Program-made: the position numbers and the translations under genes
Part shown: positions 2,120-43,291 of the stretch, piece by piece
Numbering within the stretch: position 1 is the stretch's first letter
Layout: every line of letters starts with the position of its first letter
Notes under the pieces: generated by a model
What the model was told of the DNA's origin: nothing
Seen by the model: the letters and a program-made list of their open reading frames with translations, nothing else
Database searches by the model: none
Origin: Pseudomonadota bacterium
GTDB lineage: Bacteria > Pseudomonadota > Gammaproteobacteria > Steroidobacterales > Steroidobacteraceae
Length of the DNA: 64,000 nucleotides
NCBI GenBank assembly: GCA_018241505.1
Contig: JAFEDS010000016.1
Coordinates: 682,001 to 746,000, forward strand
Direction: 5' to 3'

Positions 2120-3108
2120 CGGCCCGAAGCTGCCGATCGATACAGCGCGTCAATGACCCGCATGTTGGCGATCGCATCCTCAATGGGAAACTCCTGCGTG
2201 ACTTCGTTGCGAAATGAGGCGGCTGCGAGGTCGCATTGCAGTTGATACTGGTCGACTGCTGCGAACTCCTCGACGACGCTCGAGCTGCCATCGAGGCTGT
2301 CACCCGAATCGATGACAATCCGGCAGGCGTGCTCTTTGGGTGGCGTGAACGGGATGGGTATTTCGATTCGGCCGCGAGAACCGAGCACGACCACCCTCTG
2401 ATAGAGGGCAAGCTGCAACGAGCTCGTGAGCACGAGCTGCTCACCCCCAGCAAAGGCCACGAGGCCGCTCGTCACCCGGTCGACTCCAAATGTCGGATCC
2501 CGGTCGATGAGGGCGATGACGCGCACTGGCTCAGTGCCAAACAGGTAGCGGGCCGTGACGATCGGATAACAACCGACATCGTAGAGGGCACCGCCTCCGT
2601 ACTCGAGACGATTACGTACGTTCTGCGGGTTGGCGACTGGAAACGTAAAGGCCGATTGCAACGCCCTAACCGTGCCGATTCGTCCGCTGCGCACGAGTGT
2701 ACGGACGCGATGCCATTGCGGGTGGAAGCGCACCATGAAAGCCTCGATGACCCGCTTGCCGCTTCGGTCGCGGGCGGCAATGATGGCCTGCGCTTCCTGC
2801 GCATTGAGGCCGATCGGCTTTTCGCACAGCACGTGCTTCCCAGCGTCGAGCGCTTTGACCGTCCACTCGACATGCAGATGGTTGGGTAACGGGTTGTAAA
2901 TCGCCTCGATCTGCGGGTCCTCCAGCAGCGCGTCATAGCTGCTGTAGCTGCGCTCAATGCCGAAGCGTGCGGCGACAGTGCGGGCCCGCTCTGCGTCTCG
3001 GGATGCGATAGCCGCGACGACACCGCGCTGGCCCGAAAGAATTGCCGGGATCACGCGCTTGATGCCGATGTTCGCGGTACTGAGAATTCCCCAAATGACT
3101 TTGTCCAT
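2104..3108 (-). CDS. Gfo/Idh/MocA family NAD(P)-dependent oxidoreductase
   Basis: A 334-residue protein starting MDKVIWGILSTANIG, a typical N-terminal Rossmann segment, with the family lysine motif CEKPIG near residue 95. Members oxidise or reduce sugars and cyclitols with NAD(P). The start at 3108 is preferred over an upstream in-frame start (3231) because AGAAGG sits just before it and the homologous N-terminus begins here; the upstream extension is Arg-rich and looks non-coding. It is first in the operon with the MFS carrier and the STAND regulator. Substrate unknown. Confidence 0.88.
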   Translation of the reverse strand: MDKVIWGILSTANIGIKRVIPAILSGQRGVVAAIASRDAERARTVAARFGIERSYSSYDALLEDPQIEAIYNPLPNHLHVEWTVKALDAGKHVLCEKPIGLNAQEAQAIIAARDRSGKRVIEAFMVRFHPQWHRVRTLVRSGRIGTVRALQSAFTFPVANPQNVRNRLEYGGGALYDVGCYPIVTARYLFGTEPVRVIALIDRDPTFGVDRVTSGLVAFAGGEQLVLTSSLQLALYQRVVVLGSRGRIEIPIPFTPPKEHACRIVIDSGDSLDGSSSVVEEFAAVDQYQLQCDLAAASFRNEVTQEFPIEDAIANMRVIDALYRSAASGRWEAP

Positions 3109-3486
3109 TTGCCTTCTACCACCCCTACATGCGTGTATTGGCAATGGTAACCAAGTACGTGCGGAGTGCGGGCGCCACGGCGGGGCCCGACGGCGGCGGG
3201 AGCGGACGGGGCTCGAAGAACCAGCTCTCATAAACCAATAACTTACTGATTTACCTGGAGATCAAATCCCTTGTGTTCCCCGGGACTCACCTGTGGTCTA
3301 GCCCTACACTTGCTCAGCTCCTATCGCCACGGGGCCGCCGGTAACGATGGCTTGTTGCTGCGGTTTGGTGGCCTCGGTATTCCCGCCGTCCGTGATGGCG
3401 TTGAGCGGCTCGTCCGCGCGGCCCAGCGAATAGAGAAACTGCATTCGACGGGAAGCTGATTAGCTCACCGGAATCATCCCGCCGAG
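3109..3486. other. Intergenic gap, leader of the Gfo/Idh operon
   Basis: This 378-bp gap lies upstream of the minus-strand Gfo/Idh operon and downstream of the DUF6152 gene. I see no convincing gene; the 62-codon frame at 3271-3459 lacks a ribosome site and any recognisable sequence. It contains a near copy of part of tRNA-Asp at 3199-3217, listed separately. No clear hairpin terminator was found. Confidence 0.6.
3199..3217 (+). repeat. Near copy of the tRNA-Asp 3' region (possible att remnant)
   Basis: The bases GGAGCGGACGGGGCTCGAA match 32061-32079, inside the tRNA-Asp gene (acceptor stem 3' strand plus T arm), at 18 of 19 positions and in the same orientation. A tRNA 3' fragment in direct orientation is the usual trace of integration at a tRNA gene. 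No integrase was recognised between the two copies, so the site assignment is tentative. Confidence 0.4.
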
Positions 3487-3894
3487 CTACTTCAGGCCCG
3501 GTTTTTCCGCGTCCCGCAAGCTCGACGTGAGTACCTGACCCGTAGCCAGGAACTTGGCCGAGTTGAACGCACCACCGTGCTTGCCGTCGCGCAGCGGATA
3601 GAACTGCAACTCGATCCGGTCACCCGGTTTGAATGACTTGCGCGACCAGCCCATCCGCGTGAGGTTGCCGGGGCTCGTGAGCTCCATCGACCAGATCTGC
3701 ACCGGCGTACCCGGTTTCGGGGACACCTCCACCAACAGAACCACATGCGGGTTCGTCCACCGGAATTCGGTGACTGTCGCGCTGAACGTTGTCGAGTTGT
3801 TGAAGTCGAACATGGCGAACGAATGATGCGCCAAACCCGGTGGCGCCAGCGCGGCCGCCAGTACACACACACAGCACAGTAGTTTCAATTTCAT
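3487..3894 (-). CDS. DUF6152 family periplasmic protein
   Basis: A 135-residue secreted protein: signal peptide of about 22 residues (MKLKLLCCVCVLAAALAPPG) followed by HHSFAMFD, the start motif of DUF6152. A small beta-rich domain follows with FRWTNPHVVLLVEV and an RIELQFYPLRDGKHGG segment. Function is unknown; the His pair at the mature N-terminus could bind metal (inference). It is the last gene of a five-gene minus-strand cluster with the 279-residue secreted protein, two DUF6644 membrane proteins and a C-type cytochrome lipoprotein. Confidence 0.85.
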   Translation of the reverse strand: MKLKLLCCVCVLAAALAPPGLAHHSFAMFDFNNSTTFSATVTEFRWTNPHVVLLVEVSPKPGTPVQIWSMELTSPGNLTRMGWSRKSFKPGDRIELQFYPLRDGKHGGAFNSAKFLATGQVLTSSLRDAEKPGLK

Positions 3895-3909
3895 GCAGCC
3901 CTTCCAGGT

Positions 3910-4749
3910 TCACTTGTCTTCAGGGAGCGTGTTGCCACCTTCCGATTGCAAAGCGGGCACGAACACAGCATTGCCGGCGGCGTCCTTGCCCTCAGAATAA
4001 TTGCCCTGCAGGCATACGCCTTCAACGATGTCGTATTTTTTCGCTCGCTGACGAAACAGGATCAGCTTGGTCTTCCAGGTGCGAGTCAGCACGTGCGGCG
4101 CGCTAATCTCCAGGTCATCGTTCAGGGTGTCAGGTCCGACCAGGTGGATGCGCTCGACGATGTGCATATCGCCGTTGTTGGGTAAACCAACAGCCTCGCT
4201 GGAGGCGATGTAAGTCTCAGGAAGCACCCCGACGGTGTCGACCACGAGGGTCTTGTCCTCCCAATGGCCGATCGAGTGACCGTGGAACGTAGGATCCGGG
4301 TCCGCTGGATGCGGTCGTCCATCGGTGTAAATCCGGCGCAACCGATTGCCATCCGACTCGCCGAGGAGAGTGACTCGGCCGGGCGTAAATAAAAACTCCA
4401 CGGCGTTGTGGGTGATGAGCATCCAGCTCGGCATGGACTCGGGCAGACAGTTCACGAACAGACCCTTCGGATTGCCTGCTTTTTCCGCTGCCACCAGCTT
4501 AGCAATTTGCGCGGCCGCGGCCGCATTCCACGGAATCGGATTCGACTTCATACGCGCATCCTGATCCTTCAGGGTGGGAGTCCAAACACCACTCCAATCA
4601 GGCAAATGAGCAAGCGCCGCCCACTCAGATGGCTGCGGTGCCAGGTTGATTTCCGGGTCGCCGCCACCGAATGCCGCAGCGGCTGCACTCATAGCGGCAG
4701 CGGTTGCGACGCCGACCATCCACGTCGATTTGCGAATCGAGCCTTGCAT
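3910..4749 (-). CDS. Conserved secreted protein of unknown function
   Basis: A 279-residue protein with an Ala-rich signal peptide ending near residue 28, then WAALAHLPDWSGVWTP. The body has HAVEFLFTPGRVTLLGE and GHSIGHWEDKTLVVDT. I do not recognise a named domain, but the WSGVW...GHSIGHWE pattern recurs in secreted proteins that accompany DUF6152 genes. It sits 15 bp upstream of the DUF6152 gene and 10 bp downstream of a DUF6644 gene, so it is almost certainly co-transcribed. No catalytic motif is evident. Confidence 0.75.
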   Translation of the reverse strand: MQGSIRKSTWMVGVATAAAMSAAAAAFGGGDPEINLAPQPSEWAALAHLPDWSGVWTPTLKDQDARMKSNPIPWNAAAAAQIAKLVAAEKAGNPKGLFVNCLPESMPSWMLITHNAVEFLFTPGRVTLLGESDGNRLRRIYTDGRPHPADPDPTFHGHSIGHWEDKTLVVDTVGVLPETYIASSEAVGLPNNGDMHIVERIHLVGPDTLNDDLEISAPHVLTRTWKTKLILFRQRAKKYDIVEGVCLQGNYSEGKDAAGNAVFVPALQSEGGNTLPEDK

Positions 4750-4759
4750 TCTTGAACCT

Positions 4760-5257
4760 CTAGGTCGGCGCGTTGAGCGTGAAGCCGATCCATCTGCCGA
4801 ACGCAGCTATAGCTATCCACAGACACAGCGATAACGCGCCAACGAACCGAGCGCGTAGCGGAGTCAACGCCGGCGTCTGCCAGCCATCCATACCACGACT
4901 CAAAAATAGGTGAAATAAAGTCATGTTCATGCCTGCCAGCGCTATCAACGCCATCTTGAACTGAAAGTAAAAGTTGTGCGCGTACACCGTCGCATTGGAT
5001 ATGAACATGAGTCCACCCGTCAGCACAACGAACACGAATGCAGTCCAGGTAACCGGAAGGACGGCGGCCATCGTTTGAGCAACAGTGCGATCGCGGGAGG
5101 CCATGCCGAGAAGGCGCAGGTCCACAATCGCGATTGACCCTAAGACCAGGCTCAGTGCGAGCACGTGCGCGCATTCTATCCAGGGGAACAGGCTCTCGCC
5201 CTCGCGAATCGCAGTCGCGAGGCCACTGTTCTGCAGGCTTTGGAGAAATGGTTCCAA
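4760..5257 (-). CDS. DUF6644-like four-helix membrane protein (1)
   Basis: A 165-residue integral membrane protein with four hydrophobic segments (about residues 25-50, 65-87, 97-118, 135-157). It shows ECAHVLALSLVLGSIAIVDL in helix 1 and HNFYFQFKMALIALAG before helix 3. A His in helix 1 and another before helix 3 are reminiscent of b-type heme membrane proteins, but heme binding is only inferred. It lies 4 bp downstream of a second, diverged member of the same family, suggesting a heterodimer or an old duplication. Confidence 0.78.
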   Translation of the reverse strand: MEPFLQSLQNSGLATAIREGESLFPWIECAHVLALSLVLGSIAIVDLRLLGMASRDRTVAQTMAAVLPVTWTAFVFVVLTGGLMFISNATVYAHNFYFQFKMALIALAGMNMTLFHLFLSRGMDGWQTPALTPLRARFVGALSLCLWIAIAAFGRWIGFTLNAPT

Positions 5258-35181: not shown

Positions 35182-36423
35182 CTAGCGCGATGCCAGACGC
35201 GCAGCCTTACCCAACAGATAGTTCCTTTCCGGCAAGCTCGCGGTCCGCTCAGCGGCCCGTTGGTAGTGTTCCAGCGCGAGCGCCTGATCGCCTGCGCGCT
35301 CATACAAATGGGCTCGCACGGCATCGACGCGATAGTGCCCCTGGAGCTTCGGGTCCTGCGCGATCGTATCGACCAGTCGCAGTCCCGCATCCGGCCCTTC
35401 GACCATGGCAGCCGCCACCGCACGATTCAGTGCGACCATCGGATTGTTGCTCATGCGCTCCAACAACTCATAAAGTGCATGGATCTGGGCCCAGTCGGTC
35501 TCCTCCATCGATGCGGCCTCATCGTGGAGCGCTGCTATGGCGGCCTGAAGCTGGTACGGACCGACACGGCCTTGCTTCATGGCATTCCATACCAACTCAG
35601 TGCCCTCCTGGATGACCGCCCGGTCCCAGGAGCCTCGATCCTGCTCGTCCAGGGGAATCAACTCTCCGGCCGGCCCCGAGCGGGCCGCCCGGCGCGCGTC
35701 GGTTAGCAACATCAAGGACAGCAGGCCGGCAACCTCGGGCATATTCACTGTTGCAGCCATCAACAAGCGGGCGAGTCGAATAGCTTCGCTCGACAGATCC
35801 ACGCGCTGCAGCTCGCTACCCGAAGAGCTGGCATACCCTTCGTTGAAGATCAGGTAGAGAACGTGCATCACGGCATCGAGCCGTTGGGAGCGCTCCTGAT
35901 CCGAAGGCAAGCTGAACGGAACATTCGACTGTTTGATGAGTTGCTTGGCGCGGCTGATCCGCTGGGCCATGGTAGCTTCCGGCACGAAAAAGGCGGCCCC
36001 GATTTCTCTGGTGCTGAGCCCGCCCACAGCCCGCAGAGTCAACGCTATGGCCGACGTAGCTGTCAGCGACGGATGCGAGCACATGAACAGCAACACCAGT
36101 GCGTCATCCTGCTCGACCTCCAACTCAACTTCGTCGCCTGTCACGAGCGGTTCCTCATTCGCGACCTGCTCCTCGCGCCGGCGACGCGCGACATCGCTGC
36201 GGCGATGGTCAGTGAGGCGCCGAAAGGCCGTCTTGTACAGCCACCCGCCGGGATTCTCCGGCACTCCCTCGGTTGGCCAATGCAGGGCAGCCTCCAGGAG
36301 CGCCTCCTGGACTGCATCTTCGGCCGCGCCAAAGTCGCGATAACGCCGGGACAGCGCGCCTAGTACCTGTGGCGTCAGCTCACGCAACAGGTATTCGACG
36401 CTCGCCGTGTGTGCGCCGCTCAT
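35182..36423 (-). CDS. ECF42-type RNA polymerase sigma factor with TPR-like C-terminus
   Basis: A 413-residue sigma factor. Region 2 is at about residues 10-85 (FGAAEDAVQEALLEAALHWP, NPGGWLYKTAFRRLTDHRRS); region 4 includes LSTREIGAAFFVPEATMAQR. The long helical C-terminus (DUF6596-like, residues 190-413) ends with TPR-like helices (ALALEHYQRAAERT). Group ECF42 uses this C-terminus instead of an anti-sigma and is coupled to a DGPF/YCII protein, exactly as here: the downstream-facing ATGA overlap with the gene at 36420 joins the two. Confidence 0.92.
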   Translation of the reverse strand: MSGAHTASVEYLLRELTPQVLGALSRRYRDFGAAEDAVQEALLEAALHWPTEGVPENPGGWLYKTAFRRLTDHRRSDVARRRREEQVANEEPLVTGDEVELEVEQDDALVLLFMCSHPSLTATSAIALTLRAVGGLSTREIGAAFFVPEATMAQRISRAKQLIKQSNVPFSLPSDQERSQRLDAVMHVLYLIFNEGYASSSGSELQRVDLSSEAIRLARLLMAATVNMPEVAGLLSLMLLTDARRAARSGPAGELIPLDEQDRGSWDRAVIQEGTELVWNAMKQGRVGPYQLQAAIAALHDEAASMEETDWAQIHALYELLERMSNNPMVALNRAVAAAMVEGPDAGLRLVDTIAQDPKLQGHYRVDAVRAHLYERAGDQALALEHYQRAAERTASLPERNYLLGKAARLASR

Positions 36424-36818
36424 TCCCCGTCAGGCAGTCCGTCCATGACGCGGCGAAGCTCGATAGGAATGACGAGCGGCTTGCCGTCGGGACCGGGCGC
36501 TGAAGAGGCCCTGGCGGCGATCTCGTGAGCGCGCTCAACCTTCTCCACGGAAATGATCCAGAAGCCCGCCAGGAATTCCTTGCTCTCCGCAAAGGGTCCA
36601 TCGGACACCACGGGCGCACCCCCCGGCCCACAGCGCACAATCTGCGCCATCCCCGGCGGTGTCAGCCCTTGGGCCTCCACAAACTCTCCGGATTTCACCA
36701 GATCGCGGTTCAGATCGTGCATGAACCGCATGTGCGCCTTGAACGCCTCCGGGTGCCACTTGTTGATCTGGTAGTCGCCCGAGCCGCGCGGCGTGTTCAT
36801 CATCAGCATGAATTTCAT
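36420..36818 (-). CDS. YCII-related DGPF-domain protein (ECF42 partner)
   Basis: A 132-residue dimeric alpha-beta barrel (MKFMLMMNTPRGSGDYQINK) with the diagnostic VSDGPFAESKEFLAGFWII. DGPF proteins occur beside ECF42 sigma factors; their biochemical role is uncertain. It precedes the sigma gene and overlaps it by ATGA, so the pair is one transcriptional unit. Confidence 0.92.
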   Translation of the reverse strand: MKFMLMMNTPRGSGDYQINKWHPEAFKAHMRFMHDLNRDLVKSGEFVEAQGLTPPGMAQIVRCGPGGAPVVSDGPFAESKEFLAGFWIISVEKVERAHEIAARASSAPGPDGKPLVIPIELRRVMDGLPDGE

Positions 36819-40870: not shown

Positions 40871-40922
40871 TTCAGACCCTTTTCAACCATGCATGTGATA
40901 CTTGGCGGGGGCGCCGGTATAT

Positions 40923-41447
40923 ATGCCCATGACCCCCGAGCAGGCAATCGTGGACGCAAGTAGCCCAGAGGATCTGGATTGGGACGCGGTGTACGCCGAC
41001 CAGGCTCCGCGCGTCTACAACTACTTCCGCTTTCGCCTGGGGCGCACGGCCGACGCCGAAGACCTCACAGCACGCACCTTTGAAAAAGCCTGGCGATCGC
41101 GCGGAAGCTACCGACACGATCTGGCCGGGTTCTCCACCTGGTTGTTCAAAATCGCGCAAAACGTCCGGATCGATTTCCTACAGTCCCAAAAAGCCCACCT
41201 CCCCATCGATGTGGCTCTCAACGTAGCCGCAGGCAGCAGCCCCGATGAGGATCTCGAGCGCGAATCCGACCTGGCGAGATTGGCGAGCCTCACCAGGGAC
41301 CTGCCCGATCGCGAACGCGAACTGATAGCGCTGAAGTACGGCGCCGCCATCAACAACCGCCTCATCGCTCAACTCACCGGGCTGAGCGAGTCGAATGTCG
41401 GAACCATCCTGCATCGCGTCGTCCAGACGCTGCGCAGTCGATGGTGA
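40923..41447 (+). CDS. ECF sigma factor (first gene of PstS/STN operon)
   Basis: A 174-residue sigma factor. Region 2: VYNYFRFRLGRTADAEDLTA then KAWRSRGSYRHDLAGFSTWL, FKIAQNVRIDFLQSQ. Region 4: LPDRERELIALKYGAAINNR, IAQLTGLSESNVGTILHRVV. ATG at 40923 is preferred over a TTG at 40902. The next gene starts 14 bp downstream of its stop and encodes a one-helix membrane protein, the usual place for an anti-sigma factor. Confidence 0.92.
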   Translation: MPMTPEQAIVDASSPEDLDWDAVYADQAPRVYNYFRFRLGRTADAEDLTARTFEKAWRSRGSYRHDLAGFSTWLFKIAQNVRIDFLQSQKAHLPIDVALNVAAGSSPDEDLERESDLARLASLTRDLPDRERELIALKYGAAINNRLIAQLTGLSESNVGTILHRVVQTLRSRW

Positions 41448-41461
41448 TCCGGAGTGCAGCA

Positions 41462-42673
41462 ATGAACGATGATTTCCTACACCGTATCCGAGTCGAGCCA
41501 CCGCCCGACTTTCTGGCGCGACTGAAGTCGCGCCTGGACCTGCAGCCACCGCCGCCAAAACCAGCTTCGCGGCTCGGCAGGTTCAGGATGCTCGCGACAC
41601 TGCTGCTGGTGAGCGGCAGTGTGTTCGCGATTACGTTGATGATCCTCAATCGCGGCGAGCCCGATAGCCCCATGACAGCAGAGCCGGAACATGCGCTCCA
41701 GAAACAGGCGGTCGTCGCGGCTTCCAAACCAACACCCAGCGTCAATTCAGCCAATCGGTCAGAAGCCGGGCCGGCCAAGGAGACCGGGACAAACTATATC
41801 GCCGTCACTACAACGTCACTCCAGCCGTACCTGTCCTATCTCACAGAGACGTATTTCCCCAATCGCGGCCATGGCATCAAGGCAGTGGCCACCCAAAACG
41901 TGGCCGACGCGCTCACGCAATTGTGCACCCGGCCGGAAGCTGGTAAATCCGAGCAACCGAAGACGCGGCCCTCTATCGCCCTGGTTACCCGGCGGATGGG
42001 CCAATCCGAATCTGAAAAATGCTCGCGAGCTTCCGGCCCGTTCAATGAAAACCCCGTTGGTTACCAGGTCCTGGTACTGGCGCGGAGCAAGCTCTACGGC
42101 GCGTTCAGTCTGACGCCCGCTGAGATATTTCTTGCGTTGGCATCCAAGGTTCCCGACCCGGCGCACCCTGACAAGCTCATACCAAACCCAAACACCGTAT
42201 GGAGCGAAATCAACGGTGCGTTGGAACGAGAACCGATTGAGGTCATCGGCCCGAGCCGCTCATCGGCCATCGGACTCGCTCTGCGCGAAATACTGCTGGA
42301 AACGGGTTGCCGTTCATTGCCGTCAATGGCTGCAACGAAGGATTGCCCCGACGTGCGCACAGACGGCATTTACACCGAAGTGGCAAACCCTCGTGACATT
42401 GCGCTGATACTGCAAACCAAGCCCAACGCCGTCGGCGTAACGCCCTACGGACTCGGCAGTTCATCCATAAACTCCCTCGTGGACATCCCGATTGGAGGTA
42501 TCGAACCCTCCCTGCAGGCGATTGCCAACGACACCTACCCGGGCTCCCGCGCGCTGTATCTGTACACGAACGGCTCTACCTGGGGCCCTACTTCGTCCTA
42601 TATCACCAGTTCCCTCTGGTTTATGGGATCCGATTTGCAAGCTCGTTTTGCCATCATGCCACCACGGAATTAA
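41462..42673 (+). CDS. Membrane-anchored PstS-like protein, putative anti-sigma factor
   Basis: A 403-residue protein: cytosolic residues 1-42 (MNDDFLHRIRVEPPPDFLAR), one membrane helix at about 43-63, a Pro/Ala-rich linker, and a periplasmic domain of about 300 residues that resembles PstS-type phosphate-binding proteins (VGYQVLVLARSKLYGAFSLT, PAEIFLALASKVPDP, NTVWSEINGALER, EVIGPSRSSAIGLALREILL, ILQTKPNAVGVTPYGLG). The short cytosolic part and position after the sigma gene suggest anti-sigma function; this is inference. No zinc-binding anti-sigma motif is visible, so the mode of sigma binding would be unusual. Confidence 0.82.
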   Translation: MNDDFLHRIRVEPPPDFLARLKSRLDLQPPPPKPASRLGRFRMLATLLLVSGSVFAITLMILNRGEPDSPMTAEPEHALQKQAVVAASKPTPSVNSANRSEAGPAKETGTNYIAVTTTSLQPYLSYLTETYFPNRGHGIKAVATQNVADALTQLCTRPEAGKSEQPKTRPSIALVTRRMGQSESEKCSRASGPFNENPVGYQVLVLARSKLYGAFSLTPAEIFLALASKVPDPAHPDKLIPNPNTVWSEINGALEREPIEVIGPSRSSAIGLALREILLETGCRSLPSMAATKDCPDVRTDGIYTEVANPRDIALILQTKPNAVGVTPYGLGSSSINSLVDIPIGGIEPSLQAIANDTYPGSRALYLYTNGSTWGPTSSYITSSLWFMGSDLQARFAIMPPRN

Positions 42674-42676
42674 ACC

Positions 42677-43291
42677 ATGAAGATCGTCGCCATACTCCTG
42701 CCATTAATGTGTGTCAGCAGCGTAGCAGCCGCCGATGTCAGCTCATCGTCCGAACCCGACACCGGCATACCCATCGAAAAAATCATCACTTCGGTCGCCA
42801 ACCAGACCCACCGCAAGTTTGTCATTGACCCTCGCGTGCAGGCTCGAGTCCACCTCGTCGGCGAGGACCCCACACAAGTTACCTACAACGAGCTGCTCAC
42901 AATCCTGGAGCTGCATGGCTACGTCACGTTCGAAAGCAGCGGCTATGTAATGGTGCTGCCGGACGCCAACGCGCGGCAGGTACCTCAACAAATGCTCGCA
43001 AAGGGTCAAACATATCCCGACGCCCAGGTCGTCAACTACACAATCCCAGTCGTGAACGGCCCCGCCGGCTTCCTGGTCCCCATACTGCGTCCTTTGCTGC
43101 CGCAGTACGCACAGCTCGCAGCAGCAGGCTGCTCTAATACCTTGTTGATCACCGACCGGTACGCGAACGTCAAACGTATCGAAGCCATTGTGAAAGCATT
43201 GGATGTCGGCACTCCGTACAAGCCGGAGAAATGCGAAATGGCCAACCCGGGCGAGCACCGCGATCAACCGGCGAAGCGAAGCGATTCTTAA
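42677..43291 (+). CDS. Stand-alone secretin N0/STN-like periplasmic protein
   Basis: A 204-residue exported protein (signal MKIVAILLPLMCVSSVAAAD). Residues 30-95 read as an N0/STN domain (IPIEKIITSVANQTHRKFVI, VTYNELLTILELHGYVTFES, GYVMVLPD) and 110-180 as an N1-like KH fold (VVNYTIPVVNGPAGFLVPIL, NTLLITDRYANVKRIEAIVK). Such domains normally form the entrance of GspD secretins or the signalling domain of FecA-type receptors; here no channel follows. The start is 3 bp after the PstS-like gene, so the three form one operon. Confidence 0.85.
   Translation: MKIVAILLPLMCVSSVAAADVSSSSEPDTGIPIEKIITSVANQTHRKFVIDPRVQARVHLVGEDPTQVTYNELLTILELHGYVTFESSGYVMVLPDANARQVPQQMLAKGQTYPDAQVVNYTIPVVNGPAGFLVPILRPLLPQYAQLAAAGCSNTLLITDRYANVKRIEAIVKALDVGTPYKPEKCEMANPGEHRDQPAKRSDS

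Follow-up and report, generated by a model that had tools for sequence, protein, structure and literature searches.

What does a sigma factor respond to when its anti-sigma partner carries a PstS-like periplasmic domain and the next gene exports the front end of a secretin without the channel? This question is raised by positions 40923-43291 of a 64,000-nucleotide stretch of Steroidobacteraceae DNA (assembly GCA_018241505.1, contig JAFEDS010000016.1, positions 682,001 to 746,000), here called the window. At this locus, the gene for an extracytoplasmic function (ECF) sigma factor is followed by the gene for a one-helix anti-sigma candidate and by one for an exported protein consisting of the secretin domains N0 and N1. 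We find that this operon is real and conserved. We give about even chances to a reading in which the three genes form a self-contained, autoregulated ECF switch whose PstS domain, having lost its binding motifs, would serve as a protein-interaction sensor read by the N0-N1 protein.

Sigma factor, anti-sigma candidate and N0-N1 protein are encoded together

The first gene (40923-41447, on the forward strand like the other two) encodes an ECF sigma factor, a short protein with regions 2 and 4. Region 2 scored above the Pfam cut-off (Sigma70_r2, E 1.5e-13) and region 4 slightly below it (23.7 versus 24.1 bits); the model TIGR02937 was matched at 86.5 bits, above its cut-off. The second gene (41462-42673) encodes the 403-amino-acid anti-sigma candidate. 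Its cytoplasmic N-terminus (41462-41581) carries the motif MNDDFL...F..RLK, found in eight Steroidobacteraceae copies, and two predicted helices, placed at residues 3-11 and 15-26 by a structure model (models were built from eight and nine sequences). A transmembrane segment (41591-41647; maximum hydropathy of 2.37 in the scan segment starting at residue 44) leads to the PstS-fold domain (41786-42670). The third gene (42677-43291) encodes a stand-alone exported protein of 204 amino acids with an N0 domain (42761-42967) and an N1 domain (43028-43213) only; the open reading frame (ORF) ends soon after N1, and there is no outer-membrane channel domain. An original prediction made from the DNA alone had described an operon of this composition, and the profile search, which finds PF12849 in the second protein, bears it out.

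The three genes occur together and in the same order in 8 of the 217 family genomes searched, namely the window genome and seven genomes of one other genus, and once more at a locus termed L102, treated below. With the start codons chosen here, the intergenic gaps in the eight Steroidobacteraceae operons range from -4 to 40 bases. The gene 3' of the N0-N1 gene differs between loci and is a major facilitator superfamily transporter gene in the window; the downstream neighbors were therefore excluded as operon members. The operon of Steroidobacter agaridevorans is directly followed by another ECF-like gene and by one for a membrane protein (L088:8676-9829).

A profile of the sigma factor matched 9 of the 217 family genomes at E 1e-30, eight of them with the full operon. 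The ninth, G005, encodes the sigma factor next to an anti-sigma candidate of a different kind, and the N0-N1 protein of the window gave no match there within 16 kb. At E 1e-40, the window's own genome was the sole match among 369 genomes of the class, and a search of genome contigs with the anti-sigma candidate alone found no relative. Scanning named genomes yielded 40 loci with related sigma factors: seven of the operons already found, recorded mostly as Steroidobacter and Peristeroidobacter, L102, and 32 loci of other architecture. The operon is present in the cultured strains S. agaridevorans SA29-B, Peristeroidobacter soli JW-3, P. agariperforans KA5-B and S. gossypii S1-65 and is therefore open to experiment.

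The same ECF group spans Chloroflexota, Acidobacteriota, Eiseniibacteriota and other Gammaproteobacteria (L100-L130 among the loci). The 32 loci of other architecture share with the operon the sigma factor and, in about 23 cases as judged by eye, the N-terminal anti-sigma motif. They differ in other respects. Their anti-sigma candidates end in other domains; of three that were scanned, two matched DUF4367, one of these just below the cut-off. None of the loci gave a hit when searched by tblastn at E 1e-3 with the N0-N1 protein of the window, and several have an ABC-transporter ATPase gene directly after the anti-sigma candidate. This last arrangement offers an analogy for the third slot of the operon. 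Our literature search found no paper on DUF4367 together with a sigma factor.

The sensor domain has lost the binding motifs of PstS

The outer part of the anti-sigma candidate is a PstS-type domain (PF12849) with the PstS fold, and PBP_like_2 was the sole Pfam family matched up to E 1. We aligned the eight Steroidobacteraceae anti-sigma candidates with 30 free PstS-like homologues, which comprised the best search matches with kept loci and the copy from the window's own genome; one of them, L043, lacks its start. Four cysteines (C155, C187, C283 and C295 in the window protein) and the residues R177, E183, N242, W247, G263, P264, R299 and D301 are present in all 38 sequences. The binding motifs behave differently. 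The G, T and R of SGTRD occur in 30 of 30 free homologues each, versus 0, 0 and 2 of the eight anti-sigma candidates, and the S and D in 29 each versus 3 and 0. The three GGG columns are kept in 29, 29 and 30 free proteins but in only 1, 0 and 0 anti-sigma candidates, and the G/S/S residues of the loosely aligned first loop occur in 29, 29 and 28 of 30 versus 2, 6 and 2 of 8.

We take the GGG and SGTRD motifs to line the phosphate site of PstS. Because both are lost, the domain is probably not a phosphate sensor, and it is possible that it binds some other ligand. The suggestion in the original prediction that the sensor might report an anion in the manner of PstS finds no support, given this loss in all eight proteins against near-invariance in the 30 homologues and given that no Pho box exceeded chance: within 400 bases upstream, the best site in the window differed from the consensus at 6 positions and those of eight other loci at 4-6, compared with a mean of 5.2 for random stretches. 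PhoB control may still exist in the face of such a sequence scan. The third GGG column is alanine in all eight anti-sigma candidates (A150 in the window), the T column of SGTRD is leucine in six, and a serine or threonine beside R177 is retained in all eight. These residues suggest that some constraint remains on the domain.

A type II secretin-like third protein lacks the GspC-docking residue

The third protein is not a TonB-dependent outer-membrane receptor. It has the same fold as the N0-N1 region of GspD/XcpQ, is 27-34% identical to XcpQ in structural alignments, and is closer to a type II secretin than to a TonB-receptor domain. FecA- and FpvA-type domains were not among the 50 matches listed for the N0-N1 model, which is not grounds for excluding them. 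The likeness to FecI-FecR-FecA signaling drawn in the original prediction therefore stands as fold kinship; it fails where the third protein falls nearer to the secretins and where the anti-sigma candidate gives no FecR-type Pfam match up to E 1.

Apart from the missing channel, the protein differs from GspD/XcpQ in three further respects. It has a cysteine pair, C152 within N1 and C186 just past its end, which is invariant in the eight Steroidobacteraceae operons and absent from L102. It is also separate in a tree of 18 free N0-N1 proteins (nine from operons, nine from elsewhere) and 32 GspD N-terminal regions: all 32 GspD sequences lie on one side of a branch with support 100/100, and the free proteins lie apart on long branches. 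Other short N0-N1 ORFs, for example in G755 and G030, are perhaps cut by contig ends and lie outside the free set.

The third difference concerns the first strand of N0. This strand helps to dock the HR domain of GspC in GspD, and Phe9 is reported as conserved there in GspD of enterotoxigenic Escherichia coli (PMC3169554). The docking column is aromatic in all 32 GspD sequences but in only 1 of the 18 free N0-N1 proteins (G080, a tyrosine); in the window protein, D28 falls at the position of GspD residue 9, as extrapolated from residue 29, which aligns with residue 10. Because the aromatic residue is missing in 17 of 18, the established mode of GspC binding should be closed to the free proteins, and we rejected the N0-N1 protein as a GspC decoy of that kind.

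The nine free N0-N1 proteins outside the operons come from genomes of the same order (L033, L034, L035, L036, L037, L183, L184, L185 and L186). Their flanks, read over 3.3 to 15 kb each, contain no close relative of the sigma factor, the best match being a weak one about 4.5 kb away in L184 (E 0.002), and we noticed no common neighbor gene.

A promoter box at the operon points to a single strong target

Aligning the upstream regions of the operons revealed an ECF-type promoter box, GTGATAC-N14-SGTATA, immediately 5' of the sigma factor gene; in the window it reads GTGATAC-N14-GGTATA (40895-40921, forward strand). The exact pattern occurs once per genome, at the operon, in six of the eight operon genomes, with no match to the reversed-pattern control, and the remaining two have the box at the operon with one mismatch. 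Allowing one mismatch to GTGATAC-N14-CGTATA gave 19 sites in the eight genomes, eight at the operons and 11 elsewhere, versus nine for the control. As the 11 sites roughly match the control in number, we did not accept them as additional regulon members; ten lie inside a longer ORF on either strand, and one of these (G257, L142) is 92 bases 5' of a 469-aa ORF. The single exact box per genome, together with off-operon sites at control level, suggests that the sigma factor has one strong target and probably switches on only its own operon.

The related pattern GTGAYA-N15-SGTATA was found once each in 29 of the 40 loci, namely the seven source operons and 22 of the 32 loci of other architecture, and was absent from the other ten and from L102, whose -35 element is weaker than in the other operons. 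In the window and eight relatives including L102, the start codon follows the -10 element by 7 or 8 bases if the second ATG is counted in the window and in L099, which predicts a leaderless mRNA. The first ATG of the window's sigma factor gene (40923) is one base past the -10 element and the second (40929) seven bases past it, and 40929 appears the more likely start.

A related locus combines the same domains from different sources

L102 (positions 2694-5237) has the same three-gene architecture on a 6.3-kb contig of a metagenome-assembled genome labeled Chloroflexi. The L102 sigma factor groups as sister of the eight from Steroidobacteraceae (support 89/88, not a starred branch), so that the Chloroflexi label looks doubtful. 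The sensor, by comparison, is an E. coli-type PstS (E 8.3e-46): blastp matches between the L102 anti-sigma candidate and the others stop by residue 152, short of the PstS domain. Alignment with E. coli PstS shows changes around the GSGT motif here as well. The L102 N0-N1 protein groups in the tree with other free proteins and not with the eight operon proteins, and constraining the nine operon proteins together was rejected (approximately unbiased test, p 0.0155), although this test was selected with the tree already in view and is affected by long branches. A sister sigma factor combined with a different PstS and an N0-N1 protein from a different branch suggests that the parts were replaced by non-orthologous ones while the pairing of PstS fold and N0-N1 was retained, at this one locus.

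How the switch might work

In the reading that we favor, the short cytoplasmic N-terminus of the anti-sigma protein would retain the sigma factor, and the PstS-like periplasmic domain would sense a protein. The third gene would supply the periplasm with a free N0-N1 protein of type II secretin kind, and this protein, encoded last in the operon, is the obvious partner of the sensor. By analogy with FoxA and FoxR, this protein would most likely bind the PstS-like domain and so decide whether the anti-sigma protein holds or is lost. Once freed, the sigma factor would read essentially one promoter, its own, yielding more sigma factor, anti-sigma protein and N0-N1 protein, the last being the sole new product of the switch. 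Both the binding of the sigma factor by the N-terminus and the autoregulation are steps that we infer.

The known systems supply partial precedents. In FoxA/FoxR and PupB/PupR, a secretin-like domain contacts the periplasmic part of the anti-sigma factor, and the FoxA signaling domain is described as protecting FoxR from proteolysis, a precedent for a secretin-like domain that steadies an anti-sigma factor (PMC11637429). There, a secretin-like fold is present on both sides, one of them being part of an outer-membrane receptor, whereas here a PstS-fold anti-sigma candidate would face a free partner. Of the systems described, VreA-VreI-VreR (PUMA3) from Pseudomonas aeruginosa comes closest, as judged from published descriptions rather than from Vre sequences. 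It likewise joins a sigma and an anti-sigma factor to a barrel-less, mostly soluble protein with an N-terminal domain of the secretin/TonB-receptor type (PMC2729926), and the operon shares with it a barrel-less exported secretin-type protein encoded with sigma and anti-sigma genes. The order of the Vre genes is different (vreA-vreI-vreR), and the second domain of VreA was modeled as TolA-like. Unlike the closed loop proposed here, vreAIR is reported to be PhoB-dependent and not autoregulated, with VreI having other targets (PMC4971064). Among the matches listed in our literature searches, no paper dealt with a PstS-type anti-sigma factor or with this operon.

Several observations weigh against the proposed switch. 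The contact between anti-sigma and N0-N1 protein, and its sign, are drawn by analogy, and VreA of P. aeruginosa is reported to be dispensable for regulon expression under phosphate starvation (PMC4971064). The nine N0-N1 proteins with no close sigma relative in their sampled flanks imply some sigma-independent role. The promoter pattern was derived from these very operons, so that its presence there is not independent evidence, and the scan would miss weaker targets. L102 is a single 6.3-kb contig. Finally, the alanine and leucine that recur at the lost motif columns could reflect a new ligand rather than none.

This last point leads to a rather unlikely alternative, in which the PstS-like domain genuinely senses a small molecule, with altered specificity, binding of this ligand suffices to free the sigma factor, and the N0-N1 protein is made only as a downstream product. 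The fold and R177, E183, N242, W247, R299 and D301 are retained in all eight proteins, the replacements at two of the lost columns are themselves conserved, and L102 employs a second, different type of PstS; the near-complete loss of SGTRD and GGG and an upstream Pho box no better than chance speak against it. The barrel-less remnant of a FecI-FecR-FecA-type cell-surface signaling system, to which fold kinship would point, is very unlikely: beyond the missing FecR match and the GspD-type N0-N1 domains, the best NCBIfam model for the sigma factor is BldN-like, with a score below its cut-off.

The operon could also monitor type II secretion, which we consider unlikely; the original prediction had named a secretion state as the other conceivable signal. 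PstS-like exoproteins would compete with the pseudo-PstS domain for the N0-N1 protein, and a periplasmic backlog of substrate would free the sigma factor. This would fit reports that the PstS-like protein Psp of P. fluorescens is secreted mainly via the Hxc type II system (PMC2225411) and that the substrate PelI touches GspC and GspD (PMC7949064). GspC scored above cut-off in seven of the eight operon genomes, the eighth being 75% complete, and a separate PstS-like gene is present in all eight, compared with one of three genomes without the operon. However, the N0-N1 protein lacks the GspC-docking strand, no type II gene adjoins the operons as judged by eye among the flanks listed, and type II export of these PstS-like proteins is an assumption by analogy. 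Type II secretin matches are moreover widespread irrespective of the operon (89 of 99 relatives and 263 of 296 genomes of the order, counts that include stand-alone N0-N1 proteins, although nearly all matches listed lie in long ORFs). A more specific and similarly improbable version would make the PstS domain a domesticated, ligand-dead mimic of a type II exoprotein, read by the free N0-N1 protein as a decoy that reports type II traffic; the sole regulated unit would be the operon itself, and the pairing would have outlived the non-orthologous replacement of both parts.

Elsewhere in the window, positions 35182-36818 hold what we take to be a further sigma-like gene with a long C-terminal extension beside a small, presumably YCII/DGPF-like gene on the reverse strand. 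No Rfam family was matched at gathering score between 39500 and 45000.

Significance

The operon joins three well-known parts in a combination that did not appear among the matches listed in our literature searches, and after VreA it is a second instance in which sigma and anti-sigma genes share an operon with a free secretin-type domain. It also brings free N0-N1 proteins to notice as a group. Should the PstS-like sensor indeed respond to secretion traffic, the operon would reveal a means by which a cell monitors its own type II secretion. With its clear architecture and likely closed regulatory loop, the operon represents a new form of sigma/anti-sigma signaling.
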